A DNA stretch of 64,000 bases from Phosphitispora fastidiosa (GTDB lineage: Bacteria > Bacillota > Thermincolia > Thermincolales > UBA2595), in contig NZ_JAHHUL010000022.1 in assembly GCF_019008365.1 (NCBI RefSeq), positions 1-64,000 of the forward strand, given 5' to 3'. Each line of letters begins with the position of its first letter. Positions within the stretch are counted from its first letter, which is position 1. Below the pieces are notes generated by a model. That model had not been told where the DNA came from and did no database searches. It saw nothing but the letters and a program-made list of their open reading frames with translations. The position numbers and the translations under genes are program-made. Positions 8,845 through 56,738 of the stretch are shown here, piece by piece.

Positions 8845-10005
8845 ATGAGATCTGTTATCTTCTTCTTTGTTGTGGCAATAATTATTTTTATTTATGGGGC
8901 ATTTAATTACTATATAGGTTACCGGGGGTGGCATTCCCTGGGGAACAGCATTTCCTTTTTGAACCGCCGGGTATATTGGGTTATTTTCTGGCTTCTGGTG
9001 GCAGCATACCCGGCTGCCCAGATGGGCCAGCGGTTTCTTCCTGCAGGGATAGGCAGAGGGCTGACAATTAGCGGAGCTTACTGGACGGCAGCCATGTTTT
9101 ATTTCCTGCTGATAATACTGGTAATCGATGCTGTCCGGCTGCTTGACAGGTTTTTTTATATCCTGCCGCAGGTAGTCAGGGAAAATCCCCTGGCACCGCC
9201 GGTTACCGGTGGCGTGGTGCTGGCCATAGTAGCAGCCATCCTTATTTATGGTACATTTAATGCCCTTAACCCCGTGATAACCAGGTATGACCTCACTATT
9301 GACAAAACGTCCGGCTCAGTGGAGAAACTGGATATTATCATGGTTTCCGATATTCACCTGGGTTCAATTGTACGTACCGGACGGCTGCAGAAATTGGCTG
9401 AGGAGGTTGGGCGTGTAAAACCTGACCTGATTCTTCTTTCCGGTGACATTGTTGATGAAAGTATGGAGCCCTTGGAAGTTGACAATATGGTAAAGGTCTT
9501 TGAAAAGATGACGGCACGTTACGGCAAGTTCGCTGTTCCGGGGAATCACGAGTATATCAGCGGTCACGTCGATGCTGCCTTCCGCTACCTGGAACAGGGC
9601 GGTTTCCGTGTCCTCAGGGATGAGTATGTAAAAGTTGCCGACAGTTTCTATATAGTAGGCAGGGATAACAGCAGCCACCAGGCACCACGAACGAAACGGC
9701 AGGAATTATCGGCACTGATGGGGGGGGTAGAGCGCACCCTCCCGGTTATTTTGCTAGACCACGAACCTGTTGACCTGGAAAATGCCAGGGAAAACGGTGT
9801 TGACCTGCAGTTATCGGGACATACCCACCGCGGGCAGTTGTTTCCCAATAACCTGATTACAGGAAAAATCTACGAACAGGACTGGGGACTGCTGCAAAAA
9901 GGCGTCCTGAACCTGATTGTGTCATCAGGATATGGGACCTGGGGGCCACCTATCCGTATCGGGAATAAACCGGAGATAGTAGAGATTACAGTAAGGTTTC
10001 CTTAA
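8845..10005 (+). CDS. Membrane-anchored metallophosphoesterase
   Basis: The 386-residue protein has four predicted membrane segments in the first 140 residues, followed by a calcineurin-like phosphoesterase domain. The metal-binding motifs are all present: VSDIHLG, LSGDIVDE, PGNHEY and SGHTHRGQ. It belongs to the YkuE/YaeI-like group, which includes a lipid A-linked UDP-diacylglucosamine hydrolase homologue and enzymes of unknown substrate. A ribosome site (AAAGGAG) precedes the ATG. Its TAA overlaps the stop of the convergent asnB within a shared TTAA. The substrate cannot be told from sequence. Confidence 0.85.
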   Translation: MRSVIFFFVVAIIIFIYGAFNYYIGYRGWHSLGNSISFLNRRVYWVIFWLLVAAYPAAQMGQRFLPAGIGRGLTISGAYWTAAMFYFLLIILVIDAVRLLDRFFYILPQVVRENPLAPPVTGGVVLAIVAAILIYGTFNALNPVITRYDLTIDKTSGSVEKLDIIMVSDIHLGSIVRTGRLQKLAEEVGRVKPDLILLSGDIVDESMEPLEVDNMVKVFEKMTARYGKFAVPGNHEYISGHVDAAFRYLEQGGFRVLRDEYVKVADSFYIVGRDNSSHQAPRTKRQELSALMGGVERTLPVILLDHEPVDLENARENGVDLQLSGHTHRGQLFPNNLITGKIYEQDWGLLQKGVLNLIVSSGYGTWGPPIRIGNKPEIVEITVRFP

Positions 10006-11846
10006 AGGATTCTTACCTTATATTCTCTCAGCCAGATATCTGTCTGGATCAGGTAAGCGAATAGCTGCGGGCCTGTCATTAGCTGACCGAACCAGGGCCT
10101 GTCAAAGACATCTGCTTTTGCTGCAGCCATTTTCCTAATCTGTTTTATATTGATTAGATCAAGCAGGGGTGAAGCAGGGTCACTGATTCTGGTAAGTAAA
10201 GCGTCCCTGACAGCGATCAGGTAACCGGGATTATGGGTTTTCGGATATGGGCTCTTGCGGCGGTACAATACCTCTTGTGGGAGGATACCCTGAAGGGCGC
10301 GCCGCAGCAGGCCCTTTTCAATATTGTTACAGGTTTTCATCTTCCAGGGGACATTCCAGACATACTCAACTATCCTATGGTCACAGAAGGGTACCCGGAC
10401 CTCCAGTCCCGTGGCCATACTCATCCTGTCCTTGCGTTCCAAGAGAGTCTGCATAAACCAGTGAAAATTAAGGTAAAACATCTGACGCCTTTCTGCCTCA
10501 CGGGGGGACTCTCCCGGGAGGGGCGGGGTTGCGGCAGATGTTTCCCGGTAACGCCTTGCCATATATTCTGCGGGTTTTAACTGTGCTGTCAGTTCAGGGG
10601 CGAAAACCTTCATTTTTGTCGCAATTTTTGCCGACCAGGGGAAGGTGTCTGCTTGCAGATCTTGCGGGTTGTGATACCACGGGTAGCCCCCGAATATTTC
10701 ATCAGCACATTCTCCGGAGAGGGCCACTGTGTGCCTTTTTTTTATTTCACGGCAGAACAGGTAAAGGGAGGAATCGATATCGGCCATTCCGGGCAGGTCC
10801 CGTGCCGTTGTGGCCATACTGAGGGAGTCAACCAGATCCGGTGTGTCAAAGTATATAGAATTATGTGATGTATTGAGATGCTCTGAGACATACTGTACCC
10901 AGTCGGAGTCAGAATTGGGCTGGAACCTGCCGGGTTTGAAATGACGGTCGTTGTCGACATAGTCTATTGAATAGGTATTCAGGTTTTCCCTCCCTTCACT
11001 CAGGTACTGTTTCGCTGCCACAGCGGTGATGGCACTGGAATCAACTCCGCCCGACAGAAAGGTACAGACTGGGACATCGGAAACCAGCTGCCTCCTGATG
11101 GCATCAGTGACTAAATGACGGACTTTTGCTGCCGTTGTCTCCAGGTCATCTTCATGTGGTTTGCTCTCCAGTTCCCAGTATTTTTTAATCCAAGTACCTT
11201 TCCTGGCAAATAACAGGGAATGACCAGGTTTGAGTTCTTTGATACCACGGAATACACCATGACCCGGAGTCCGTGCCGGACCAAGGACAAGGACTTCCGC
11301 CAGGCCTTCTGTATCCAGCTCAGGGGAAATTTCGGGGTGAGCCAACAGGGCCTTTAGTTCTGAGCCGAACAGAAAGGAACGTCCTCGTTCCGTGTAAAAG
11401 AGAGGCTTCACACCCAGGCGGTCTCTGGCAAGGAACAGGCTTTGTTCTGCCTCATTCCAGATACCAAAGGCAAATATTCCGTTGAGCCGTTCCACACAGG
11501 CCGGTCCCCATTCAATATATGAGGTCAGCAGCACTTCGGTATCGGAATGTCCCCAAAAGATATGGCCGCGGGATACCAGTTCCCGGCGCAGTTCAGGGGT
11601 ATTATAGAGTTCACCGTTATAGACGATAACATATTCACGGTTTCCGCTCCTGCGGCTCATGGGCTGGCCTCCGCCGGCAGGGTCAATTACAGTCAGCCTG
11701 CGGTGTCCCAGAGCGGCCCTTGGGGACAGCCAATAACCTTCGGCATCGGGGCCGCGGCGGGCCAGGGTTTGTGTCATTGCTGTCAGGATCAGATTTTCTT
11801 TAGTCAGGTCTCTGTCCCAGTCTATCCAGCCGGTAATTCCACACAT
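10002..11846 (-). CDS. asnB: Asparagine synthase (glutamine-hydrolysing)
   Basis: The enzyme makes asparagine from aspartate, ATP and glutamine. The 614-residue protein starts MCGITGWID, so Cys2 becomes the N-terminal nucleophile of the class II glutaminase domain after Met removal. The ATP-pyrophosphatase motif SGGVDSS follows near residue 245. The ATG at 11846 has an AGGAGG site. An in-frame extension upstream would bury the catalytic cysteine and is rejected. It is the last gene on the pyrrolysine/methylamine strand but is separated by an 18-bp hairpin, so it may be expressed independently. Together with amtB and two glnA genes it reinforces the nitrogen theme. Confidence 0.93.
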   Translation of the reverse strand: MCGITGWIDWDRDLTKENLILTAMTQTLARRGPDAEGYWLSPRAALGHRRLTVIDPAGGGQPMSRRSGNREYVIVYNGELYNTPELRRELVSRGHIFWGHSDTEVLLTSYIEWGPACVERLNGIFAFGIWNEAEQSLFLARDRLGVKPLFYTERGRSFLFGSELKALLAHPEISPELDTEGLAEVLVLGPARTPGHGVFRGIKELKPGHSLLFARKGTWIKKYWELESKPHEDDLETTAAKVRHLVTDAIRRQLVSDVPVCTFLSGGVDSSAITAVAAKQYLSEGRENLNTYSIDYVDNDRHFKPGRFQPNSDSDWVQYVSEHLNTSHNSIYFDTPDLVDSLSMATTARDLPGMADIDSSLYLFCREIKKRHTVALSGECADEIFGGYPWYHNPQDLQADTFPWSAKIATKMKVFAPELTAQLKPAEYMARRYRETSAATPPLPGESPREAERRQMFYLNFHWFMQTLLERKDRMSMATGLEVRVPFCDHRIVEYVWNVPWKMKTCNNIEKGLLRRALQGILPQEVLYRRKSPYPKTHNPGYLIAVRDALLTRISDPASPLLDLINIKQIRKMAAAKADVFDRPWFGQLMTGPQLFAYLIQTDIWLREYKVRIL

Positions 11847-12070
11847 AAAATAATCCTCCTGTTTGCATATACTTTGTCCCAAAACAATGAGGCCACAGGG
11901 TATCTCCAATTACCCTGTGGCCTCATTGCCACCAGACCGGCACGGCGCTGTACCGGAGTTTTTGCTTCAGAGGTATTATATGACGTGTGCCGGGGAAAAG
12001 TGTCTGGAACACAATATTCAGGCAGCGTATCAGGGATATCTGCAATCATCTCAGAATTAAGTCTGGTCAT
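11822..12070 (-). pseudogene. pylD: Truncated pylD (pyrroline-carboxylate dehydrogenase-like, last step of pyrrolysine synthesis)
   Basis: PylD oxidises the PylC product to pyrrolysine and is normally about 260-270 residues. Here an ATG at 12070, with an AGGTGATGGCAGG site just after pylC, opens MTRLNSEMIADIPDTLPEY, which resembles a bacterial PylD N-terminus. After about 20 residues the similarity appears to end. The frame then runs through unrelated sequence and the 18-bp hairpin into the asnB start, with no nucleotide-binding domain or PylD C-terminus. The identification rests on position after pylC and this short N-terminus recalled from the family. An assembly deletion cannot be excluded. 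Confidence 0.6.
11885..11928 (-). terminator. Perfect 18-bp hairpin between the pylD stump and asnB
   Basis: CAATGAGGCCACAGGGTA (11885-11902) pairs perfectly with its inverse at 11911-11928 around an 8-base loop. Read on the minus strand it is followed by a short T tract (TTTTGGG). It could terminate pyl transcription before asnB, or be a palindromic scar left by the event that removed pylD. Confidence 0.55.
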
Positions 12071-12081
12071 CCTGCCATCAC

Positions 12082-13248
12082 CTAAATTTCTGCCGGAACC
12101 GGGTCCCGGAATACCTGTAGGTTATGTTCTGCCATCAGGCTTTTGAGAGCCTGGTGGCGCTTGATTTTTGCTTCTGTGAAATTTGGTGCGCTCGAAATTA
12201 AAGTAGCTGCCCATGCTTTCCTTTGGTCCTCGCTAAAATCAGTGATGACCTGGTCAAAACCGTAAAGATCTGGATGACATTCTAATGGTCCCGCTGATGC
12301 CATAATGTGTTCACCGGTCACTTCGAGAAGGTTTCCGGATACCCTGATGTGTTCGTATATTACGGTGCGTTTGGAAATTATATCAATGGCAGGGAGTTTT
12401 CCCTTTACAAGAATCTCTGCCAGTAATTCCACCATGTTGATTCCGGTGGAATGAAGCACTGCGGTTGGGGTTTGACTGGGCAGGCGGGCATCAATCTCAA
12501 TTACTTTGGGAATGTCATTGTCTACCATCACTTCCACATCCATAATCCCGGTCAGGTGCAGGGACTCGGCCAAATTACAGCCGATGCGCCGGAGCTCGGC
12601 AGAGACCTGGGGATCAACCAGTTTTCCGGCCAGGACTCTCTTACAGTCATAATCGGGGTCAAACTCCAGTTCGGTTACCTGAAGCGCCAGGGGCTCCCCG
12701 TTTAACGCGGCGACCTCCAAAGACAGGGAAGGGCCGTGAACAAACTCCTCAACTACCGGGTTGCCCGGTTGTGATCCCAGTTTCATGAGAAGCTTTTTTA
12801 ACTCTCGCTCGGTGTTTATGGTCCTTACACCGGTGCTGCCGCTTCCATTAGAAGGTTTAAGAATTGCCGGGAAACGACAATTTGGCCATTTTGCCGGTAC
12901 CGGGATATTCAATGACTGAAAAAATGCGTTGGAGGTTAGTTTGGAAGAGGAGACGGCATATGCCCTCCGGTCAAAGGCCAGGGGACGGTCAATTTCAAGG
13001 GCCAGCTGGTGTACCTTGGCCAGGGTCAGGATGTCTTCATTGGCGGGAATTATCAGGTCCACAGACCGCAACAGTTCACCGGTACGCCTATAATTGTTTA
13101 TTACATCCAGTACTATAAACTCGTCAGCCAATGATGCTCCGGGGACCTCGGGATTTCTGTCAATGAGCAGGGTTTGGTATCCTGCCTGTTTAGCCAGATA
13201 GGCAGATTCAGTTCCCTGCAGCCGTCCTCCAATAATGCCGACTTTCAT
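12082..13248 (-). CDS. pylC: PylC, 3-methylornithine--L-lysine ligase
   Basis: PylC joins (3R)-3-methyl-D-ornithine to the epsilon amine of lysine, the second step of pyrrolysine synthesis. The 388-residue protein has the N-terminal GIIGGRLQGTESAYLAKQAG nucleotide-binding loop and an ATP-grasp fold (AILKPSNGSGSTGV, then VIEIDARLPSQTP, the metal- and ATP-binding strand). The ATG at 13248 has an AAGGAGGGG site. It overlaps the pylB end by 41 bases. It ends in TAG, but suppression would add only a few residues before a TGA. The gene looks intact although both pylSc and pylD beside it are broken. Confidence 0.93.
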   Translation of the reverse strand: MKVGIIGGRLQGTESAYLAKQAGYQTLLIDRNPEVPGASLADEFIVLDVINNYRRTGELLRSVDLIIPANEDILTLAKVHQLALEIDRPLAFDRRAYAVSSSKLTSNAFFQSLNIPVPAKWPNCRFPAILKPSNGSGSTGVRTINTERELKKLLMKLGSQPGNPVVEEFVHGPSLSLEVAALNGEPLALQVTELEFDPDYDCKRVLAGKLVDPQVSAELRRIGCNLAESLHLTGIMDVEVMVDNDIPKVIEIDARLPSQTPTAVLHSTGINMVELLAEILVKGKLPAIDIISKRTVIYEHIRVSGNLLEVTGEHIMASAGPLECHPDLYGFDQVITDFSEDQRKAWAATLISSAPNFTEAKIKRHQALKSLMAEHNLQVFRDPVPAEI

Positions 13249-14323
13249 TAACAACCCCTCCTTTCTGATGTGGCTCCGGTTTTTGCGCCAACAGCCAGTC
13301 CTGGTATTCCTGTAGGGAAGCTCTCTTTAGGCCTAATTCTGTTAAAACCCTGGTGACTCCGGATGCAGTGCGGAAACCTGCTTCGATATCGAGAGAGCTT
13401 TGTGAAACTCCGGCCAGGCCTGTCCGGGGCGGGATAATCGATGTGACCACATTGGCGCCTGCCTCCAGGCGCTTTTTCAATCCTGTAATCCCTTCAATAT
13501 CCAGGGAAGCCGGAATCAGGACATTTCCCAGGGCGAGACGCATCACCGCTATTGAGAGGAGTTCCTTTAGCTGTGGCGGGGGACTCTGTCCTGCCAGGGG
13601 GGTCCCCCGCTGGGGGACCAGGCTCATGACCCGGGCCTGGTGGACTCCTAAATTCTGCATGGTTAAAATAGATGTGGCAATATCGGTAAAATCTTCACCC
13701 ACACCCAGCAATATGCCTTCCTCAATGAAAAACCCAAGCCTTTTCGCCAGCAGTTTGGCGGACATCCGATGCTCATATTCCTGCTGCAGGCGGAGCTTTT
13801 TGTATAGGTTTTGGTTATGGGTTTCCTGATACAGGGCGTACCAGTCGGCACCCGCCTGTTTCAATTCATAGAGTGACCCGGCAGGGACTAACCCAGGGGA
13901 AACCATTACCGGCAGGTCACTGTTTTCTTTCACCTCCCTGACCAGCCTGGTAAGCTCATTGTACCCATCAGGGTTATGGAAAAGGGGGTCTTCACCCATT
14001 GTCAGGTCAATCAGGTGAACCCCGGATTCAGCCAGTTCACCTGCTATCCGAACCGTTTCGCCAATACTCTTGCGATAACGGGGACTTTCAGAGTTAGTCA
14101 TGCGGTAATAACAAAAACTGCAGTTATTCTTGCAGTAGGTGGAAAAATATATGAATCCATATAGGAAGACCTTGTCCTGGAAGTGTTTTGCCCGGACTTC
14201 GCGTGCCGCCGCAAAGACCCTGGTATAGTCGGCTTCCTTATTCAAAGTCAGCAGGAACATGATTTCATTGTAGGTAAGGGGTTGAGCATTAATGGCTTTT
14301 TGCAGTATCGTGTCAAGGTTCAT
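13208..14323 (-). CDS. pylB: PylB, methylornithine synthase (radical SAM)
   Basis: PylB rearranges L-lysine to 3-methylornithine, the first step of pyrrolysine synthesis. The 371-residue protein carries the radical SAM cluster cysteines at 64, 68 and 71 within STYCKNNCSFCYYR, followed by LTMGEDPLF and the TIM-barrel motifs SLVPQRGTPL and PASLDIEG. The ATG at 14323 is preceded by GGGAGGAAG. A longer frame upstream to 14581 overlaps the pylSc remnant and is not coding. Full length and motif content argue that it is intact. Confidence 0.94.
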   Translation of the reverse strand: MNLDTILQKAINAQPLTYNEIMFLLTLNKEADYTRVFAAAREVRAKHFQDKVFLYGFIYFSTYCKNNCSFCYYRMTNSESPRYRKSIGETVRIAGELAESGVHLIDLTMGEDPLFHNPDGYNELTRLVREVKENSDLPVMVSPGLVPAGSLYELKQAGADWYALYQETHNQNLYKKLRLQQEYEHRMSAKLLAKRLGFFIEEGILLGVGEDFTDIATSILTMQNLGVHQARVMSLVPQRGTPLAGQSPPPQLKELLSIAVMRLALGNVLIPASLDIEGITGLKKRLEAGANVVTSIIPPRTGLAGVSQSSLDIEAGFRTASGVTRVLTELGLKRASLQEYQDWLLAQKPEPHQKGGVVNESRHYWRTAAGN

Positions 14324-14355
14324 TATATCTTCCTCCCGTTTATATGTTTGCCCTG

Positions 14356-14502
14356 TTATATGTTCAGCCTGGCCCCACCAAGGTAAACAAGGCTGCGACC
14401 GGCCCGCCTGATCTGAGAAAATCCTTCTTTGGCCATGACGAGTCGTTCCAGTCCAAAGCCAACTCCAACCCATGGTTCGGTAACTTCCCAATTGTTGTCC
14501 AA
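14356..14502 (-). pseudogene. pylSc: C-terminal remnant of pylSc (pyrrolysyl-tRNA synthetase catalytic subunit)
   Basis: Directly after the pylSn stop codon, in the same frame, 48 codons read LDNNWEVTEPWVGV, GFGLERLVMAKEGF (class II synthetase motif 3) and end in GGARLNI followed by TAA. This matches the last 48 or so residues of pyrrolysyl-tRNA synthetase catalytic domains, whose usual bacterial form is about 280-290 residues. About 230 N-terminal residues, including motifs 1 and 2 and the amino acid pocket, are absent. There is no start codon or ribosome site of its own. The deletion joins the pylSn stop to codon position about -48 of pylSc. Confidence 0.85.
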
Positions 14503-14778
14503 CTATAGAAATTTTGTCTGCGAGTATTTCTCTAACTTCCATTCCGGGACACGGCATTTGGGACATGCTCCGGCATACCACTTGTTCCTCAGCCAGCGGG
14601 CCACCCTGCTGTGGCGGGAGTTCCTGATTTTAATCTGCTGCCCACAGTGAGTAATCAGTTCAATATAGGCTCCTTTTATTTTGACTGATTTAACTCCATG
14701 CAGGATACCGTTCAGGGACGGCCATAGTTTTATTTTTTGAATTATCTCTCCGGGCGGTTGGTGTTTCCTGATACTCAT
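14503..14778 (-). CDS. pylSn: PylSn, tRNA-Pyl-binding N-terminal subunit of pyrrolysyl-tRNA synthetase
   Basis: In bacteria the tRNA-binding N-terminal domain of PylRS is a separate protein, PylSn. The 91-residue product has the conserved IKLWPSLNGILHGVKS, a likely zinc site formed by H27, C45, C72 and C75 (THCG and CPKC), and the basic surface SRVARWLRNKW. The ATG at 14778 has a GGAGGTGAACAG site, and an upstream in-frame start at 14820 lacks one. It ends in TAG after KYSQTKFL, where bacterial PylSn usually ends. If the amber codon were suppressed it would fuse in frame to the pylSc remnant. Confidence 0.9.
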   Translation of the reverse strand: MSIRKHQPPGEIIQKIKLWPSLNGILHGVKSVKIKGAYIELITHCGQQIKIRNSRHSRVARWLRNKWYAGACPKCRVPEWKLEKYSQTKFL

Positions 14779-14886
14779 TATCTGTTCACCTCCAGTGAGT
14801 GAGGGGCATTGGTCAGCCACCTCACCGGCAGGCGCCGGGATACTGACGAAGTCAGATAACTCCCGGCCTGCCGGCCGGTAAACCGG

Positions 14887-16278
14887 CTATTTATTCCGCC
14901 AGTAATCCAGGCCTAAATCAGTGAGGATTTTAACTGCTTCATCGTATACCCTGAGGTACTCGTCAGTCGGGGTAAGTTTCATGACATCATAGCATTCCTC
15001 AAAGGGCTTGCCCTTCGGCGCTGTTTTATAGTCTTTTTCATACAGAGCGACAAGTTTGTCCAGAATCACATTAACCTTTTCAGTTTCCATTCCGGCTACA
15101 GCCCGTGCTGCTTCGGCCATCATTCTGGCTTCCAGTCCGGTGGTATAATTGGTGGCCACTCCTTTTGCAGAGGCTACGCCGGAAACAATTTCACGCCCGC
15201 TGGCGGTATCCGTAATGGCCTGGGCCGCTGTTTCCAGCAGACACATTACGGTACAGGGGCCGGCCATGGTGTAATACTGATTACCCAGCATCAGATGGGT
15301 ATTGGCTTCAATTGCCATGGCGCAGTGGCCTGCCACTGCCAGAGCCTCTCTAGCGGTGGTTATGCCCCAACGCACATGGATGGGACCATCCAAATGCCAG
15401 GTTGCCTGTGTCATCACAAAGGCATTGATAGTGGTGGCCACGTCAACAATGGTAGTCTCTTCGAGACCACCGGCGTAACCGCCGTAAATCGGCATCTGTT
15501 CACACATGATGACATTCCCGGCCAGTATGTAATGAGCACAGAAGGTTAACGCACCTACGTCAATCTTCAACTCATTCAGCTGGGATACCTCATGGCTGTC
15601 AGATGGCCGCATGCCACCCGGGAAATCTGCTGCGATTACCCCGGCGGCTGAAAGTGAGGTTTCGTTCCCCTACAAGGCCATGCCCGGGCGGCCTGCTCTT
15701 AATTGAGCTGCCCGGACCATAATAGCTTCCGATTTAACGGCAGCTATCTCCCATGGGCTATTGGGAACCGGGTCATGCCCATTGATGGTCTGCAGTACAC
15801 CGTCTACAATGGTATCTACCAGTGGTTCCTGGGCATATGACTCGTGAACCTGAATGAAATAGTTTTCGGAAACAGGAGCACCTGTCGGGCCGCCTTGAAT
15901 GACGGGTGGGGTGGCATCGGTGTATTTCCTTCCGGCCAGCTCCACTGCATCTTTACCTTCACCAAGGATAGCCCTGGAGGGAGCGGCATTGATTGAAGCC
16001 AGCACCTCTTCTTCGGTATATTTGATAACCCGGCCGGTATCAATACAGTAAATCCCGCATTCCACCAGCATTTCCAAACCGGCCTTAAAAAGGTTGTTAA
16101 TCAGGGTCTTATCCGTGGGAATGATCATTTTTTTGTCCATTTTGATGCCGTATTTTTCCTTAAGCCGGGTCGCAGTTTGAGGGATTGTTTTATAGTCCCA
16201 TTCTTTCTCTGCGACCTTGGGGCCGGTTTTAGCCCGGTCAAAAACGTCAAAAACGGTTACCTTTTTTGCTAATGCCAT
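14887..16278 (-). CDS. mtmB: MtmB, monomethylamine:corrinoid methyltransferase with in-frame UAG (pyrrolysine)
   Basis: MtmB moves the methyl group of monomethylamine to the corrinoid protein and releases ammonium. The two frames at 16278-15670 and below are one gene. Codon 203 is TAG (15670-15672) and reads GRPGMAL-O-GNETSLSAAG, the active-site context known from archaeal MtmB, where residue 202 is pyrrolysine. With readthrough the protein has 463 residues, close to the usual 458, and retains VIQGGPTGAPVSE, DSHEVSQLNELKID and SGREIVSGVASAKG. Without readthrough a 202-residue fragment results. The ATG at 16278 has a GAGGAGGTAAC site. Function depends on pyrrolysine supply, which the broken pylSc and pylD next door put in doubt. 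Confidence 0.95.
15670..15672 (-). other. In-frame UAG decoded as pyrrolysine in mtmB
   Basis: TAG at codon 203 of mtmB is flanked on both sides by sequence typical of the methyltransferase active site, so this is a recoded codon and not a nonsense mutation. Elsewhere in the window TAG is an ordinary stop codon (amtB, thiL, the desulfoferrodoxin gene, an Rrf2 gene), so no genome-wide avoidance is evident. Confidence 0.92.
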
Positions 16279-16304: not shown

Positions 16305-16952
16305 TTAACTGACCAGTTTCCTGGCCTGTTTGATGGCCTCGGCTGCATTTTCGGCGTACCCGTCGGCGCCAATCTGGTCTACCCATTCCTGGGTTACCGG
16401 GGCGCCGCCGAAGAGGCATTTAACCCCGGCCCTAATACCTTCTTCGCCCAATGATGCCAAGATGTCCCGCTGGGCAGGCATTGTAGTGGTCATCAGGGCT
16501 GAACCGGCAATAATGTCCACATTAAGCTCTTTGGCCTTAGCCACGACTTCGTCAACCGGGATGTCCCGGCCCAGGTCAATAACTTCAAAGCCGCTGGCGG
16601 CAAGCATGGTTTTGACAATATTCTTGCCAACGTCATGGATATCCCCCTGTACCGTGTGTATGAGAACTTTACCCAGTGAGGCTTTATTTTTTTCTTCCAC
16701 TGAAATGGTGGAAGTCAGTACATTCACTGCGGTTTCAAAGGCTTCAGCAGCAAGCAGAATCTGGGGTACGAAGATTTCACCTTCATCGAATAATTCACTG
16801 ATGGTATTCATTCCCTGGGAAAGACCCTGTTGAATAGCTTCAATGGGATCCAGGCCTGCTGCCAGAGCTTCTTTTGCAGCTGCTTCGGCCTGACCGGCAT
16901 CAAACTCTTCGATGGATTTTTGCAGTTTACTTAAGATGTTGTCTTTACTCAT
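16305..16952 (-). CDS. mtmC: MtmC-type corrinoid protein
   Basis: This protein carries the methyl group on cobalt between MtmB and the second methyltransferase. The 215-residue protein has the B12-binding cap domain (about 1-90) and a Rossmann domain with the cobalt lower-ligand motif GDIHDVGKNI (His106), then GSALMTTTM and FGGAPV. The ATG at 16952 has a GGAGGTG site. A GTG nine bases upstream is less likely. Its start overlaps the end of the MtbA-like gene (ATGAGTAA), suggesting coupled translation. Position next to mtmB suggests specificity for monomethylamine. Confidence 0.9.
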   Translation of the reverse strand: MSKDNILSKLQKSIEEFDAGQAEAAAKEALAAGLDPIEAIQQGLSQGMNTISELFDEGEIFVPQILLAAEAFETAVNVLTSTISVEEKNKASLGKVLIHTVQGDIHDVGKNIVKTMLAASGFEVIDLGRDIPVDEVVAKAKELNVDIIAGSALMTTTMPAQRDILASLGEEGIRAGVKCLFGGAPVTQEWVDQIGADGYAENAAEAIKQARKLVS

Positions 16953-17997
16953 TTGTGTCACCTCCTTTCATTCCCGGCTTGATCTCTCGGGCAGCTGCCA
17001 CCATTGCCAGAAGATTACCGGTGGTAGTGGCGGGGGGGACGGCACAGCCGGGTGAGATTAGAGCTACACCATCCTGATACCCTTTTAGTACTTCCCCGGC
17101 GACAGCTTCCGGGGTCCCCTGAAAGAGGGTCTTTACAGGGTCAATGGCGCCGATAATGGGTACTTTAATGCCTTCCTCCCTGAACTTGCCAAGAGCGCCG
17201 GGAATATCAACGGTATGCTCAACACTGATGGCAGCAGCGCCTGTTTTGGCGATATCCGGCATCAGGGCATCCAGTTTGCCGCAGATGTGTATAATAGTAG
17301 GTGCTTTAATTTGTTCGATTTGCATTTTCTGATAAGGAACCGCCAGTTCCCGAAAAATCTTCGGGCTGATCATATCAAGGGAGGCCATCATGTCTTCCAC
17401 TACAATTACATCGGCCCCGGCCTCGATAAGTGCATTGGCCAGAACTGTGCCGGCTTTTTCGGCGAATTCAATATATGGCCTGACTGCATCAGGTGTTTTA
17501 AAACTTGCCATCAGCAGTTCCGTTATTCCCAACAGACTTGTGGCAATGCTGAAGGGGCCGATGACACCGGCCATTACCACCACCTGATCACCTATATTTT
17601 CCTTAAGCAGTTTAACTGCCTTGATTAGCTCAGGAATTCGGCCGCGCTCCAAAAAATCCGCGGGGAATTGGGGGCGATCGCCGATTTTCAATGGGTGAAC
17701 ATTAATACTGGGTAAGTTCGTCTTGCCACCGTCTTTCAGACCGGATCCAAGGGCTTCGGCCTCAAAGGTTTGGCAGTAGGGAACCCGGACGGCGTCCAGC
17801 CCCAAAATGGAATAGCCGCCGGCTGCCAGGGCTGCCATTTTGATACCGTCATTATGTGCTTCCGGCCACCCGACCCCCAGTTTTTCCATTTGTTCATACG
17901 TAGCATGCTGGTTAACACAGATAACAGGTAAACAATCTGTTTCTTCACCCCGGAGAGCTGCTAAAACCCTTTCCCGGGAAGTCATTTCCAAAGCCAT
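16945..17997 (-). CDS. MtbA/MtaA-like methylcobamide methyltransferase
   Basis: The 350-residue protein belongs to the uroporphyrinogen decarboxylase-like family that takes methyl from a corrinoid protein. The zinc ligands typical of MtbA/MtaA are visible: His237 and Cys239 (HICG) and Cys318 (SPGCAVPP). In methanogens the acceptor is coenzyme M. In a Firmicute it is more likely tetrahydrofolate, as in the related MtgA, but the sequence alone does not decide this. The ATG has a GGAGGTAG site and lies only 35 bases downstream of tRNA-Pyl, so the tRNA is probably cut from the leader of the operon mRNA. Confidence 0.88.
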   Translation of the reverse strand: MALEMTSRERVLAALRGEETDCLPVICVNQHATYEQMEKLGVGWPEAHNDGIKMAALAAGGYSILGLDAVRVPYCQTFEAEALGSGLKDGGKTNLPSINVHPLKIGDRPQFPADFLERGRIPELIKAVKLLKENIGDQVVVMAGVIGPFSIATSLLGITELLMASFKTPDAVRPYIEFAEKAGTVLANALIEAGADVIVVEDMMASLDMISPKIFRELAVPYQKMQIEQIKAPTIIHICGKLDALMPDIAKTGAAAISVEHTVDIPGALGKFREEGIKVPIIGAIDPVKTLFQGTPEAVAGEVLKGYQDGVALISPGCAVPPATTTGNLLAMVAAAREIKPGMKGGDTNE

Positions 17998-18032: not shown

Positions 18033-18104
18033 TGGAGGAGAGTCCGGGAGTCCAACCCGGCTGCACAGATTTAGAGTCTGTGTGGTCCTGCCGACCAACC
18101 CTCC
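18033..18104 (-). tRNA. pylT: tRNA-Pyl (anticodon CUA)
   Basis: The 72-base transcript folds with a 7-bp acceptor stem (GGAGGGU/ACUCUCC, one G-U pair), one base before a 4-bp D stem with a 5-base D loop, a 6-bp anticodon stem (CACAGA/UCUGUG), the loop CUCUAAA with CUA at 18072-18074, a 3-base variable loop and a T arm CCGGG-UUGGACU-CCCGG. The short D loop, 6-bp anticodon stem and 3-base variable loop are all tRNA-Pyl signatures. CCA is encoded. The discriminator base is U, where the tRNA-Pyl molecules I know have G. The tRNA heads the mtm-pyl operon. Confidence 0.95.
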
Positions 18105-18156
18105 GTGTTAATAGTATTAATTCCGAATAACTTTTAGTTGGGAATTAAGATAAAAT

Positions 18157-18193
18157 GCCCTAATGATAGAGAATATCTCTCCGTCATTAGGGC
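18157..18193 (-). terminator. Hairpin between the ANTAR leader and tRNA-Pyl
   Basis: GCCCTAATGA (18157-18166) pairs with TCATTAGGGC (18184-18193), with a second short stem GAGA/TCTC inside. On the minus strand it is followed by ATTTTATCTT, a weak T tract. It could be a second attenuator, an RNA processing signal for tRNA-Pyl, or a protein-binding palindrome. Confidence 0.4.
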
Positions 18194-18242
18194 TGCAGCG
18201 CCCGGGGTTATACACCATTGTAACCTGATGTCAGTAAGAAAA

Positions 18243-18303
18243 AAAGCGCTTGCCAGAGATGTTAGTCTCCGGAAAGCGCCATTGCTCGATACGTCTGTGT
18301 ATC
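18243..18303 (-). promoter_or_regulatory. ANTAR-type antitermination leader of the pylT-mtm-pyl operon
   Basis: Read on the minus strand: P1 (18303-18288) is GATAC-ACAGAC-GTATC, a 5-bp stem with a six-base loop having A at position 1 and G at position 4. P2 (18287-18274) is GAGC-AATGGC-GCTT, again A1 and G4. The 3' arm of P2 is also the start of an intrinsic terminator GGCGCTT...AAGCGC followed by seven T (to about 18238). Mutually exclusive P2 and terminator hairpins with paired hexaloops are the known architecture of ANTAR-protein targets. The same P1 and P2 sequences occur in four nitrogen gene leaders in this window. Confidence 0.82.
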
Positions 18304-18324
18304 ATTTGATTTTTGATATTTTAA

Positions 18325-18353
18325 AGTTTAGCACATAGGAATTATTATTGCAA
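18325..18353 (-). promoter_or_regulatory. Candidate sigma-A promoter of the pylT-mtm operon
   Basis: On the minus strand TTGCAA (18353-18348), a 17-base spacer and TAAACT (18330-18325) precede the ANTAR leader by about 20 bases. The -35 element equals that of the ANTAR regulator promoter (TTGCAA-N16-TATAAT). Confidence 0.5.
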
Positions 18354-18528: not shown

Positions 18529-18598
18529 GATACGTTGATGTATCTGTTAGCAGTGACGCTTTTTTGGAAGGGATACTTCCTTAAAAGCGTTTTTTATT
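18529..18598 (+). promoter_or_regulatory. ANTAR-type antitermination leader of amtB
   Basis: P1 (18529-18544) is GATAC-GTTGAT-GTATC. P2 (18549-18560) is AGC-AGTGAC-GCT with A1 and G4 in the loop. P2 overlaps the 5' arm of the terminator ACGCTTTT..GGAAG/CTTCC..AAAAGCGT followed by a T run. Binding of the ANTAR protein to P1-P2 would prevent the terminator and allow amtB-glnK transcription. The P1 loop has G instead of A at position 1. Confidence 0.8.
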
Positions 18599-18733
18599 TT
18601 GGATTTTCATACCCCAGGATTCTTTGTAGTATTTTTGGGTTGAGCAAAGATGCTCTCTAGCGGGAATTGGCGCCGATTCCTGAAGGAGAGCATATTTGTT
18701 TGATTGGATAAATTAATGTTAGGGGTGACGCCG

Positions 18734-20474
<1,741 letters not shown>

Positions 20475-20486
20475 ATAAATTTGATG

Positions 20487-20514
20487 TTGCAATCTTGAAA
20501 AACTCTGCTATAAT
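20487..20514 (+). promoter_or_regulatory. Promoter of the ANTAR regulator gene
   Basis: TTGCAA (20487-20492), a 16-base spacer and TATAAT (20509-20514) lie between glnK and the regulator leader. This gives the regulator its own transcription start in addition to readthrough from amtB-glnK. Confidence 0.6.
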
Positions 20515-20556
20515 GATTTATATAGATAGTATGTCATCCAAACACAAAATAATAGT

Positions 20557-20634
20557 GATACAATGAAGTATCAACATGTGGCGAGGAAGCCCTCAGAATT
20601 TTAAGCGAAAGCTTTTAATTCGAGGGCTTTTTTA
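20557..20634 (+). promoter_or_regulatory. ANTAR-type antitermination leader of the regulator gene (autoregulation)
   Basis: P1 (20557-20572) is GATAC-AATGAA-GTATC with A1 and G4. P2 (20580-20591) is GGC-GAGGAA-GCC, the most divergent of the set. P2 overlaps the terminator AAGCCCTC / GAGGGCTT (20587-20629) followed by six T. The regulator therefore probably controls its own synthesis by antitermination. Confidence 0.7.
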
Positions 20635-20661
20635 TATTATAGCGGGAAAGGAGGGATTGCT

Positions 20662-21243
20662 TTGGGGGAAGCAAGGGTGGTCATAGCAGACCCGGACGCC
20701 CAGTCACGAAAAGCGCTTAAAGCGATACTTAACCAGGCGGGACATCTGGTTACCGGAGAGGCGGAAGACGGTTTAACGGCCCTGAAGCTGATAAGAACCA
20801 GACAGCCTGACCTGGTAATTTTAGATGCCAGAATGGCTGTTATGGATGGCTCCGAATTTGCTTATATAGTCGAAGAGGACGGTTTAGCTCCGATAATATT
20901 GTTGACTTCCGGAGATCAGTTTGCCATACAAAAAGAAACTGATGAGCAGCAGCTCTTCGCTTATGCTATCAAGCCGGTTACCGAGCAGAGCCTGCTTCCC
21001 GTTATTGACATCGTGATCAAGAACTACACGAGAATCAGAACTCTTGAACAGGAGGTATCAAGGCTCAAGGACGTTATTGCAACCAGAAAACTGGTCGAAA
21101 AGGCCAAGGGAATTCTGATGGATAGTTATAAGCTGACCGAAAGCGAGGCCTTTAAAAGGATCCAGAAACAGAGCATGAATAAGCGTGTATCGATGAAATC
21201 TGTGGCCAAGGCAATCATTCTGGCTCATGAAATAAACATGTAA
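20662..21243 (+). CDS. Response regulator with ANTAR RNA-binding domain
   Basis: The 193-residue protein has an N-terminal receiver domain with the phosphoacceptor Asp55 (VILDARM), Thr82 and Lys104, a coiled-coil linker (LEQEVSRLKD) and a C-terminal ANTAR domain (LVEKAKGILMDSYKLTESEAFKRIQ..SMNKRVSMKSVAKAII). ANTAR domains bind paired hexaloop RNA hairpins and prevent termination. The first acidic pocket reads ADPD where DD or DE is usual, and no histidine kinase gene is nearby, so the input signal is unclear. It starts with TTG behind AAAGGAGGG. It is the obvious reader of the five leaders described here. Confidence 0.92.
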   Translation: MGEARVVIADPDAQSRKALKAILNQAGHLVTGEAEDGLTALKLIRTRQPDLVILDARMAVMDGSEFAYIVEEDGLAPIILLTSGDQFAIQKETDEQQLFAYAIKPVTEQSLLPVIDIVIKNYTRIRTLEQEVSRLKDVIATRKLVEKAKGILMDSYKLTESEAFKRIQKQSMNKRVSMKSVAKAIILAHEINM

Positions 21244-21255
21244 AAGAATAACCGG

Positions 21256-21337
21256 GGATACAGGGTTGTATCCGCACTATGGCAATGACGCTTGAAATCA
21301 AGGTTTTCAGACCTTTATTTTGGGCGTTTAATTTTTT
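21256..21337 (+). promoter_or_regulatory. ANTAR-type antitermination leader of glnA1
   Basis: P1 (21256-21273) is GGATAC-AGGGTT-GTATCC with a 6-bp stem and A1/G4 in the loop. P2 (21281-21292) is GGC-AATGAC-GCT. P2 overlaps the terminator whose outer stem is ACGC/GCGT and inner stem AAGGT/ACCTT, followed by T-rich sequence. It begins 12 bases after the regulator stop and no clear promoter separates them, so glnA1 may be reached by readthrough from the regulator gene. Confidence 0.78.
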
Positions 21338-21375
21338 CTCCAAAAAATAAAAATTTCTGAAAGGTGTGTGTTTAC

Positions 21376-22698
21376 ATGGATAAGAAACAAGTATTGGAAA
21401 AAGCAAGAGAAATGAATGTAAAGTTCGTCCGCTTGCAGTTTACCGACATTTACGGGGTGATGAAAAACATGGCCATTACTGTTGAACAGCTGGAAAAGGC
21501 CCTTGACGGTGAATTAATGTTTGACGGCTCTTCTATCGAAGGCTTTACCCGGATTGAAGAATCCGACATGTACCTGAGACCTGACCCGGATACCTTCCTG
21601 GTCTTTCCATGGAGGCCTAAAGATGGCTCGGTTGCCAGACTGATCTGTGATGTTTATATGCCGGACGGAACTCCCTTTGAAGGTGACCCCCGTTATGTCC
21701 TCAAAAAGGCCCTTAAGGAAGCGGCTGATATGGGTTACTCCATGTATGTAGGCCCTGAGGCCGAGTTTTTTCTCTTCCTGGTTGATGAACACGGCAGGCC
21801 TACTACGGTTACCCATGACACTGCCGGTTACTTTGACCTGACTCCTGTGGACCTGGGTGAAAACGCCCGCCGCGACATGGTGTTAAATCTGGAGCAGATG
21901 GGATTTGAAATTGAGGCTTCACACCACGAGGTGGCTCAGGGACAGCATGAAATTGATTTCAAATATGCTGATGCCCTTGATGTTGCTGACAAAGTAATGA
22001 CTTTTAAGCTGGTTGTCAGGACAATCGCGCAGCGCCACGGACTGCATGCCACCTTTATGCCAAAGCCGATATTTGGGATTAACGGCTCTGGAATGCATAT
22101 CAACCAGTCACTTTTTAAAAATGGCGCCAACGCCTTTTATGACCCCAATGGCATGAAGAAACTCAGTGAGGAAGCCTATTACTATATTGGCGGTTTATTA
22201 AAACATGCTCGCTCCTTTGCTGCCCTAACTAATCCAACAGTGAACTCCTACAAAAGGCTGGTTCCCGGATATGAAGCTCCTGTTTACCTGGCCTGGTCAG
22301 CAGCTAACAGAAGCGCCCTGGTACGAATCCCTGCCAAGCGCGGCGCCAGTACCCGTGTTGAGCTGAGAAACCCGGACCCGTCCTGCAATCCGTACCTTGC
22401 TATAGCTGCCGCCCTTTCTGCCGGTTTAGACGGTATCAAAAACAAAATCAGTCCTCCCGCAGAAATGGCCGCTAACATATACAATATGACAGCTGCGGAA
22501 AGAGATTCTGCCGGAATTCAGAGCCTGCCGGCCAGCCTGGCAGAAGCGGTGGAGGAACTGAAGCAGAACGAGGTTATGAAAAAAATGCTGGGTGAACATG
22601 TGTTTAACAAGTTTGTAGCAGGCAAACAGATAGAATGGGATAATTACAGGATAAGAGTCAGTCAGTGGGAAATCGACTCTTATTTAAGCACATATTAA
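21376..22698 (+). CDS. glnA: Glutamine synthetase type I
   Basis: The enzyme makes glutamine from glutamate, ammonium and ATP. The 440-residue protein is the short Firmicute GS-I form. It has the start motif [47 protein letters not shown] and [18 protein letters not shown]. The ATG at 21376 follows an AAAGGTGTG site. It is highly similar along its whole length to the second glutamine synthetase at 33.4 kb, so the pair arose by duplication. It is controlled by the ANTAR leader just upstream. Confidence 0.96.
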
Positions 22699-33238: not shown

Positions 33239-33325
33239 GATACAATGATGTATCATTTTGGGAATCTGAGCAACGGCGCTCACGAATGACAGGGTGTATA
33301 AACCTGTTTTTGTGGGCGCTTTATT
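33239..33325 (+). promoter_or_regulatory. ANTAR-type antitermination leader of glnA2
   Basis: P1 (33239-33254) is GATAC-AATGAT-GTATC. P2 (33267-33282) is TGAGC-AACGGC-GCTCA, with A1 and G4 in both loops. P2 overlaps the terminator GCGCTCAC / GTGGGCGC (33276-33319), which encloses ACAGG/CCTGT and is followed by TTTATTATT. This is the clearest of the five leaders. Confidence 0.85.
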
Positions 33326-33439
33326 ATTGATCTGAAGCTTATTGTTCATATAAGATTTTTTGGAAGGGAGGGGCAATCTTTTTAAGCTGTTTCTCATGCA
33401 GCAATACTTTTAATACTTATATAGAAAGGTGTGTTAACA

Positions 33440-34768
33440 ATGACGTTAACCAAAGAAGATGTTTTACTAAGGGCAAAAGAAGCTGATGTTAAGTTTATCC
33501 GGCTGCAGTTTACAGATATCTTCGGGGTTTTGAAGAATGTAGCCATTACTATTGAGCAGCTTGAAAAGGCTCTTGACGGGGAAATAATGTTTGACGGCTC
33601 ATCTATAGAAGGTTTTGTGAGGATAGAAGAGTCTGATATGTACCTTATACCTGATCCCAATTCATTTGCAGTTTTCCCGTGGCGGCCCAGGGAGGGCTCG
33701 GTGGCCCGCCTGATCTGTGATGTATACAACTACGATGGGACTCCTTTTGAGGGATGTCCGCGAAATACGCTGAAAAGGGCTCTCGCTGAGGCTGCTGAGA
33801 TGGGCTTCAGTATGAATGTGGGTCCTGAAGCTGAATTTTTCCTCTTCCATACCGATGCTGAGGGTAAACCGACCACAATAACCCATGATAAAGCAGGGTA
33901 TTTTGACCTTACCCCTGTGGACCTCGGTGAAAATGCCCGCCGGGACATGGTTATGACCCTTGAGGAGCTTGGTTTTGAAATTGAGGCCTCACATCATGAG
34001 GTAGCTCCGGGGCAGCATGAGATAGATTTTAAATATGATGATGCCCTGGATATTGCAGACAAAGTTATGACTTTCAAATTCGTGGTGCGTACCGTTGCCC
34101 AGCGTCATGGACTTCATGCAACCTTTATGCCGAAACCCATTTATGGTATTAACGGGTCGGGAATGCACCTCAATATGTCACTGTTTTCGGGAGAAAACAA
34201 TGCGTTTTATGACCCCAACACCCCTGACCAGTTGAGTGATGTGGCTAAATATTATATTGGCGGCCTGATTAAACATGCCAAGGCCATGGCTGCAATTACC
34301 AATCCCACCGTAAATTCATATAAACGTCTGGTTCCGGGATATGAAGCTCCGGTATATATTGCCTGGTCATCCCGGAACAGGAGTCCTTTAATCCGCATCC
34401 CGGCGAAGCGAGGTGTCAGTACCAGGATTGAACTGAGAAATCCTGACCCGGCGTGTAACCCGTATCTGGCAATAGCTGTTGCGCTGAAAGCGGGTCTTGA
34501 CGGAATTAAAAACAAAATACAGCCGCCACCGCCGACAGATAAGAATATTTATGAAATGACTCTTGAAGAGAGACTGGCTGAAGGTATTGAAAATCTGCCG
34601 GCAAGTATATATGAGGCGATTCAGTATCTGTCCAGGGATGAAGTCCTCAAATGCGCTCTTGGCAATCACGCTTATAACCGTTTTATTGAAGCCAAGATGA
34701 TTGAGTGGGATAAGTACAGAGTACAGGTCCATCCCTGGGAACTGGATGAATACCTGGCAGTATACTAA
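33440..34768 (+). CDS. glnA: Glutamine synthetase type I, second copy
   Basis: The 442-residue protein has the same motifs as the first copy ([49 protein letters not shown]) and differs mostly in conservative changes. The ATG at 33440 follows a GAAAGGTG site. It is the first gene of a nitrogen assimilation group, since the split glutamate synthase follows 112 bases downstream and would recycle its glutamine to glutamate. Its own ANTAR leader suggests that both copies respond to the same regulator but have separate promoters. Confidence 0.95.
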
Positions 34769-50942: not shown

Positions 50943-50958
50943 TAGTAAACTCATACAG

Positions 50959-51089
50959 ACCACTGGGGGTGCTGCGGCGGCGGCTGAGAGACTTTAGGGT
51001 CAACCCTTGGAACCTGACGAATGCATATCTGTCCCGGCTTTTGGGGCGGTGCTGCACACAACCGGATAATACCGGCGGAGGGAAGTGGG
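50959..51089 (+). promoter_or_regulatory. TPP (thiamine pyrophosphate) riboswitch
   Basis: The conserved elements appear in order: P1 CCACT/AGTGG, GGGGGTGC, GGCTGAGAG, ACCCTTGGAACCTGA, then GGATAATACCGGCGGAGGGAAGTGG. Between CTGA and GGATAATACC is a longer than usual arm of about 40 bases. Binding of TPP would favour the terminator that follows and turn off thiD-thiE-thiC. Confidence 0.95.
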
Positions 51090-51111
51090 CATAAGTTAGG
51101 ACATACTTGTA

Positions 51112-56245: not shown

Positions 56246-56490
56246 AAAAATTCCTCTCGCTTTCTTACATAAATTATCGTTCTACTCGTAAAAAATTTAT
56301 AGCCTTCATTCTTAAATATTCCCATCATGTATTAATTGTTAACCAAATATTAAAAAAATCTTAAGAGAACCATGCAGTTCATAGTGAGGCCGTACTTCTG
56401 AAGCATGTTCAGCCCCGTCAATATTATTTTTCAATTTCTTTTGCATTAATGACCACGGCATATGGTGAGGCGTTGTACAAGATTTTCCTT
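56246..56490. other. Intergenic stretch without a recognised gene
   Basis: Apart from AT-rich sequence (two A-rich runs near 56350 and 56425) nothing coding is seen between the small gene promoter and the large palindrome at 56491. Confidence 0.5.
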
Positions 56491-56645
56491 GCACTGCCGC
56501 CGTGAGAAATATTACCGCAGTTCCGCTAAGCGAAGTTCAGGACGCGGGCCACGGATGGCCCGCGCCGCCACTGAGGCAGGACGCCGAATTGGCGGTGTTC
56601 CTGAACTTCGCAAGGAACAAGGTTAGATTTCTCCGGCGGCAGTGC
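56491..56645. repeat. Large three-hairpin palindrome upstream of thiL
   Basis: GCACTGCCGCC (56491) and GGCGGCAGTGC (ending 56645) are the outer arms. Inside, GCGAAGTTCAGGA (56530-56542) pairs with TCCTGAACTTCGC (56599-56611), enclosing the hairpins CGCGGGCC/GGCCCGCG (56543-56564) and CGCC/GGCG (56582-56594). The structure would form a three-way junction in RNA or single-stranded DNA. No coding potential is convincing. Confidence 0.85.
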
Positions 56646-56738
56646 GGAAAAACGGTACAACACCTTACCATGGTTGCAACCGCAAAGGTTAACAGGTATA
56701 ATAATTCTAGTATTTTATTACAGGAAGGCCGAATAAAC

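Follow-up and report, generated by a model that had tools for sequence, protein, structure and literature searches.

An ANTAR-type dual hexaloop leader upstream of a pyrrolysine/monomethylamine operon in Phosphitispora fastidiosa and its probable place in the nitrogen regulon

The stretch of Phosphitispora fastidiosa DNA analysed, termed the window, is 64,000 nucleotides long and carries on its minus strand an operon with the order pylT-mtbA-mtmC-mtmB-pylSn-pylB-pylC, which is followed by asnB behind a leader of its own (Table 1). The operon is divergent from amtB, glnK, the gene for a response regulator-ANTAR protein and glnA1. The mtmB gene contains a PYLIS_1 match (15672-15573), and the window pylT is the second copy in the genome with nine differences from the copy on contig C3. 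No pylD, corrinoid activase gene (ramA) or intact pylSc is present in the operon, and the region 14359-14817 (-) represents either a decayed pylSc or, if its TAG is read, a PylSn-Pyl-PylSc tail fusion. A complete set is located on contig C3, comprising its own pylT, pylSn, pylSc, pylB, pylC and pylD, two mtmC-mtmB pairs and RamA, and no ANTAR leader was found at this C3 cluster. The window mtmB lies outside the Thermincolaceae clade formed by the C3, G005 and UBA2595 copies, and in G005 and G006, two genomes of the same genus, the amtB and glnA leaders are present with no pyl operon at that place, indicating that the window operon is a separate and probably acquired cassette. An ethanolamine-permease/APC-type permease encoded between the two mtmCB pairs of C3 (L038 7405-8796, +) is a candidate methylamine transporter.

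Table 1. Features of the pylT operon, its leader and the other leaders and regulon genes of the window (loop letters in brackets)
Feature	Position	Strand	Remarks
asnB, asparagine synthase (glutamine-hydrolysing)	10002-11846	-	
asnB ANTAR-like dual hexaloop leader	11885-11956	-	R1 16.6 bits
pylC	12082-13254	-	
pylB	13208-14581	-	ORF taken from its first start; homology from about 14350 on
PylSc remnant	14359-14505	-	last 49 residues, in frame behind TAG
pylSn, tRNA-Pyl ligase small subunit	14500-14817	-	
mtmB, monomethylamine methyltransferase	14887-16278	-	in-frame amber codon 15672-15670
mtmC, corrinoid protein	16305-16961	-	
mtbA-like corrinoid methyltransferase	16945-17997	-	
pylT, tRNA-Pyl (CUA)	18033-18104	-	
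pylT leader, probable second tandem unit	18157-18222	-	profile 19.9 bits; R1 11.7 bits, E 0.11
pylT leader, intrinsic terminator 1	18239-18280	-	overlaps P2, with T7; fold
pylT leader unit 1, P2 hairpin (putative antiterminator)	18274-18287	-	GAGC[AATGGC]GCTT; abuts P1
pylT leader unit 1, P1 hairpin	18288-18303	-	GATAC[ACAGAC]GTATC; sequence, fold, profile
amtB leader unit 1	18529-18590	+	P1 18529-18544, P2 18549-18560, terminator
amtB leader, probable unit 2	18618-18700	+	profile 20.6 bits; R1 17.8 bits, E 0.005
amtB	18704-20122	+	
glnK (P-II)	20136-20474	+	
ANTAR-gene leader (P1, P2, terminator)	20557-20632	+	P1/P2 part 20557-20591
Response regulator-ANTAR protein gene	20662-21243	+	
glnA1 leader	21257-21330	+	P1/P2 part 21257-21292
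glnA1	21364-22698	+	
glnA2 leader	33239-33326	+	P1/P2 part 33239-33281
glnA2	33431-34768	+	

The first unit of the pylT leader is composed of two hairpins, each with a stem of 3 bp or more and a loop of six nucleotides, and both loops have adenine at position 1 and guanine at position 4 (A1 and G4). The arms of terminator 1, GGCGCTTTCCGGAGA..TCTCTGGCAAGCGC, extend from 18280 to 18246 on the minus strand and run into the T7 tract, with the 5′ arm formed by the 3′ half of P2. Folding of the leader RNA without the terminator sequence gives both P1 and P2, and folding with it retains P1 and replaces P2 by the terminator (-27.9 kcal/mol, z -5.6); P2 and the intrinsic terminator are mutually exclusive in the fold. 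The hairpins, their A1/G4 loops and the terminator overlap are thus as the initial annotation described them. A simple terminator scan missed this terminator, probably because of an internal mismatch, and it is the folding that shows it. None of the Rfam 15 families matches the pylT leader, and therefore no curated family could be used for it.

The linker between P1 and P2 of this unit is 0 nt, or 1 nt if P2 is taken as 3 bp, and falls outside the range of roughly 2-25 nt in curated ANTAR RNAs (PMC8164766), with the other leaders in the window having about 4-14 nt. In the Enterococcus faecalis eut leaders the linker is 5-12 nt, and 3 nt already impaired induction (PMC3369931). Because the 2012 definition of the ANTAR RNA gives merely a "variable linker" (PMC3369931), linker length is regarded here as a usual range rather than a property that defines the RNA, and confidence is still lowered by it. 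In the probable second tandem unit the P1′ core TAC[AATGGT]GTA (18222-18211) and P2′ GGGC[GCTGCA]GCCC (18203-18190) are accompanied by a terminator-like hairpin, termed terminator 2 (18193-18157), and ATTTTA.

The same element precedes the nitrogen assimilation genes amtB-glnK, glnA1 and glnA2 as well as the ANTAR gene, and a weaker one precedes asnB. The leaders previously listed before amtB, both glnA genes and the ANTAR gene all exist, with the P1 loop of the amtB leader (GTTGAT) and the P2 loop of the ANTAR-gene leader (GAGGAA) having G1 rather than A1. The second pylT and amtB units and the asnB leader had been missed, and these are weaker than pylT unit 1 (11.7-17.8 bits with the covariance model R1). 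The second amtB unit has a P2 GAGC[AAAGAT]GCTC (18642-18655) with a terminator and an imperfect P1, and the asnB leader has A1/G4 in both loops (AGCGCC in P1 and AATGAG in P2) and a long, strong terminator hairpin with a weak U tract. The ANTAR protein of the window has an intact receiver with the phospho-acceptor aspartate and its partner residues, together with the LTS and KP motifs, and from its proximity is presumed to be the cognate protein of the pylT leader. It is one of three ANTAR proteins in the genome and the one encoded inside the window. The genes of the further two are placed near a third glnA on contig C17 (L039 8196-8759, 13091-13648 (-)), where no strong leader of the window type was found in their vicinity. 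Genomes of the same genus and the same family (L132, L133, L134) have a second amtB (34-38% identical) behind glnK, and in L133 and L134, whose contigs reach far enough, another glnK precedes the ANTAR gene; this second amtB/glnK pair is absent from the window (20136-20662).

The stem/loop scan alone, with neither terminator nor profile, is at chance level with about three matches per shuffled window, and the case for the leader is therefore built on the profile common to the leaders, on the overlap with the terminator and on the relatives. A leave-one-out profile, for which only the four remaining leaders were used, gives the pylT leader 31.2 bits. The sites outside the leaders that rank next in the window (20.6 and 19.9 bits) are the second units behind the amtB and pylT leaders, and the maximum over 10 shuffled 64-kb windows is 23.8. 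A search of the whole 4.1-Mb genome with R1 returns exactly five leaders of at least 38.8 bits, which all lie in the window and are the training set of the model, and the next match has 17.8 bits. In a set of 11 leaders 97% of the pair cells are standard and 16 double changes occur compared with 4.0 in shuffles, the hairpins of this set having been chosen for pairing so that the terminator overlap and the loop letters carry additional weight. The stems are conserved and covary as expected of an ANTAR target (one of the two alignments was fitted to the model), and G4 and the closing C-G pair are invariant in both loops across the leaders compared, with G1 present in some sister leaders. A1 and G4 occur together in 24 of 31 hexaloop hairpins overlapping terminators upstream of mtmC, mtmB, mtbA, amtB or glnA compared with 7 of 101 terminator-overlapping hexaloop hairpins of shuffled sequence, the former count coming from a scan with no loop condition and overstating the number of events since related genomes are not independent.

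Strong leader matches are found in 10 of 10 genomes of the class Thermincolia, where they precede amtB and the ANTAR gene in those genomes examined in detail, and at least one ANTAR protein is present in all nine relatives tested. Pyl-MtmB operons of three other lineages lie behind ANTAR-type leaders with different, compensated stems, located with a structural scan that has a chance rate of 0.4 per 64 kb. In Formimonas warabiya three tandem terminators precede an Fe-S protein-mtbA-activase-mtrH-...-mtmC-mtmB operon with units at 2234, about 2335 and 2676 (L011), of which the first and third have a clear P1 and P2 and the middle one a clear P2 only. This mtm leader is the third-best R1 match in the 6.4-Mb Formimonas genome, the best being before amtB. 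The second-best (L211 5249-5212, -) lies upstream of a proline-racemase-like gene whose operon also encodes an amino-acid ABC transporter of the branched-chain type. The mtbA-mtmC-mtmB leader of Peptococcaceae nzgw226 (L018) has P1 CAACTC[GAGGAA]GAGTTG, P2 GGGC[GCAGAC]GCTC and a terminator, and another full unit precedes a divergent mtmC-like operon. In the Desulfitobacteriia genome G102 (L135) the leader is followed by amtB, an mtbA-like gene, mtmC and mtmB in a single operon. The leaders of G102 and of the Peptococcaceae mtbA operon have different P1 stems, for which reason R1 does not detect them, and both were found by the structural scan. The initial annotation had held that a lack of conservation or covariation in relatives with pyl-mtm operons would count against an ANTAR leader; the covariation and the relatives give the opposite result. 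Its reading as an ANTAR leader is well supported by this conservation, by the layout of the leader and the profile common to it and the other leaders, and by the ANTAR gene located within the cluster.

A leader common to all mtm/pyl clusters was considered and rejected, as those of C3, G005, UBA2595 and the Desulfitobacteriia type (L136-L144) are without one; about ten clusters of the last type were searched and no ANTAR leader was found. Tandem terminators with GAGC[AACGGC]GCTC or GAGC[AATGRC]GCTC and no P1 occur at L139 13697-13810 (+) and 16098-16020 (-) and at L142 498 (-), the L139 (+) pair being upstream of an ORF that resembles a GntR-type regulator by eye.

Among the Negativicutes, 17 of the 21 genomes with Pyl-MtmB carry amtB next to the cluster, with three of the other four clusters on truncated contigs, and amtB is divergent in Sporomusaceae and upstream on the same strand in Selenomonadales. 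The mtmC-mtmB-pyl clusters of these two groups (L180-L199) are similar to the window in the adjoining amtB and in keeping a terminator-overlapping hairpin with an A1/G4 loop. They differ in the absence of a recognisable P1, as a canonical P1 was sought in the Negativicutes leaders and not found, and in its place a conserved element, CAAATAAATAANTNCCGTTAT, occurs at the start of the mtm and amtB leaders just upstream of the P2 hairpin (L181, L182, L189, L190, L192, L195, L197, L198 and others). A reverse-complement-like form, ATAACGG, occupies this position in other Negativicutes leaders. CAAATAAATAANTNCCGTTAT is confined to methylamine/amtB clusters in six of nine genomes tested and is absent from the P. 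fastidiosa genome, Formimonas and G017. The element may be an RNA element or a DNA operator, and its cluster-specific occurrence suggests a methylamine signal in the Negativicutes.

The leader as a whole is explained best, and quite probably correctly, by ANTAR antitermination that places monomethylamine demethylation in the nitrogen regulon. Transcription of the operon would begin shortly before P1 and, unless antiterminated, end ahead of pylT at one terminator or two, both of the intrinsic type. Under nitrogen limitation the response regulator-ANTAR protein of the adjoining amtB-glnK-ANTAR-glnA cluster would be active, presumably as a phosphorylated dimer, and would bind the P1/P2 hexaloops and keep P2 as the antiterminator, a putative stabilisation of P2 against the terminator that is modelled on EutV (PMC3369931, PMC8934654). 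Polymerase would then read through and both the tRNA and the methyltransferase mRNA would be made, with PylD, PylSc and the corrinoid activase having to come from the complete, non-ANTAR C3 cluster. Demethylation of monomethylamine releases ammonium, and the operon would thereby join amtB-glnK, the two glnA genes and probably asnB in one regulon. Nitrogen limitation as the signal is argued from these shared targets, from the amtB-mtmCB operon of G102 and from the Negativicutes clusters adjoining amtB(-glnK). A nitrogen role is also consistent with Formimonas, which produces methylamine but is unable to grow on it (PMC9768040), and the similar switches before methylamine genes in unrelated bacteria suggest that methylamine is often a nitrogen source. 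A broader view, that in many anaerobic Bacillota Pyl-dependent monomethylamine demethylation is chiefly nitrogen scavenging under ANTAR-type antitermination and coupled to AmtB, the Negativicutes having an undescribed leader type with P1 replaced by CAAATAAATAANTNCCGTTAT only at these clusters, can be put forward tentatively as a possibility. The complete pyl set on C3 without an ANTAR leader means that the switch governs an auxiliary cassette and not all amber decoding, and it would therefore control how much additional tRNA-Pyl and MtmB is made, not amber decoding itself. The earlier statement that amber decoding is switched on was overstated for an operon with a second pylT, pylSn, pylB and pylC, no pylD and only the end of PylSc.

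Counting against ANTAR antitermination within the nitrogen regulon are the very short linker, the amtB and glnA leaders of G005 and G006 with no pyl operon beside them, the leaderless mtm clusters of C3 and of the Desulfitobacteriia type, the presence of three ANTAR proteins in the genome and the cluster-specific element in place of P1 in the Negativicutes. The leader could be a true ANTAR target responding to methylamine, or to methylammonium via AmtB, with amtB linked as the methylammonium importer. Methylammonium is a classic Amt substrate analogue, and amtB either adjoins mtmCB or lies in one operon with it in Selenomonadales, Sporomusaceae and G102. In the Negativicutes the specific CAAATAAATAANTNCCGTTAT element is found only at these clusters. 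Other ANTAR systems (EutV, AmiR and NasR) respond to substrate, and trimethylamine switches the pyl genes in Acetohalobium (PMC11467909). A methylamine response would hardly explain, however, why the window has such leaders before both glnA genes and the ANTAR gene and probably before asnB, and the Formimonas regulon holds a separate amtB and the amino-acid ABC transporter operon, leaving methylamine an unlikely signal.

The P1 stem of the pylT leader is identical to that of amtB, and this, together with the 0-1 nt linker and the missing operon in the amtB neighbourhood of same-genus genomes, would fit a leader copied or captured from the adjoining amtB and persisting as a fixed attenuator with no present ANTAR control of the pyl operon. 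Such an origin is highly improbable, given that P2, linker and terminator differ from those of amtB, on which ground a simple copy was rejected, yet pairing and overlap are kept, that a likely second unit follows and that homologous operons elsewhere have independent leaders whose stems differ. Chance hairpins beside an ordinary terminator are suggested by the frequency with which shuffled windows satisfy the stem/loop criteria, but the score in the profile, the specificity across the whole genome, the overlap with the terminator and the conservation reduce this to a very unlikely, nearly negligible explanation.

The proposed ANTAR antitermination is a known mechanism with a new target class, the pyrrolysine/monomethylamine operon. 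ANTAR leaders are known on Firmicutes P-II, ammonium transporter and glutamine/glutamate synthase genes, for example in Desulfotomaculum acetoxidans (Ramesh et al. 2012, PMC3369931), and share with the window dual hexaloops with G4 and mostly A1, the P2/terminator overlap, several copies per genome and the association with nitrogen genes. The pylT leader differs from these in its tRNA-Pyl/monomethylamine methyltransferase target, its very short linker and its likely tandem units. The EutV-eutP system of E. faecalis (PMC3369931, PMC8934654) likewise has a response regulator-ANTAR protein with a P1 recruitment hairpin and a P2 antiterminator hairpin, and it differs in its ethanolamine signal and in the EutW kinase, no kinase gene having been recognised beside the ANTAR gene of the window. 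Expression of pylTSBCD in Acetohalobium arabaticum is also condition-dependent, with trimethylamine as the signal and no RNA-level mechanism stated in the available text (cited in PMC11467909). The literature search found no report joining ANTAR with pyrrolysine/monomethylamine operons; it covered sources other than the supplementary tables of Ramesh et al. 2012, in which an uncommented earlier listing is possible. The leader would provide a concrete RNA-level mechanism by which a bacterium times the production of a stop-codon-reassigning tRNA, and would shift the emphasis in the bacterial use of pyrrolysine away from carbon metabolism and towards the acquisition of nitrogen. It may also explain why Formimonas has a Pyl methyltransferase without growth on methylamine, as the operon would serve for nitrogen and be off in ammonium medium.

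Elsewhere on the plus strand of the window two further RNA motifs score below threshold, a TPP riboswitch at 50955-51100 (43.7 bits, cut-off 54.3) and a TwoAYGGAY RNA at 56489-56647 (41.1 bits, cut-off 43).
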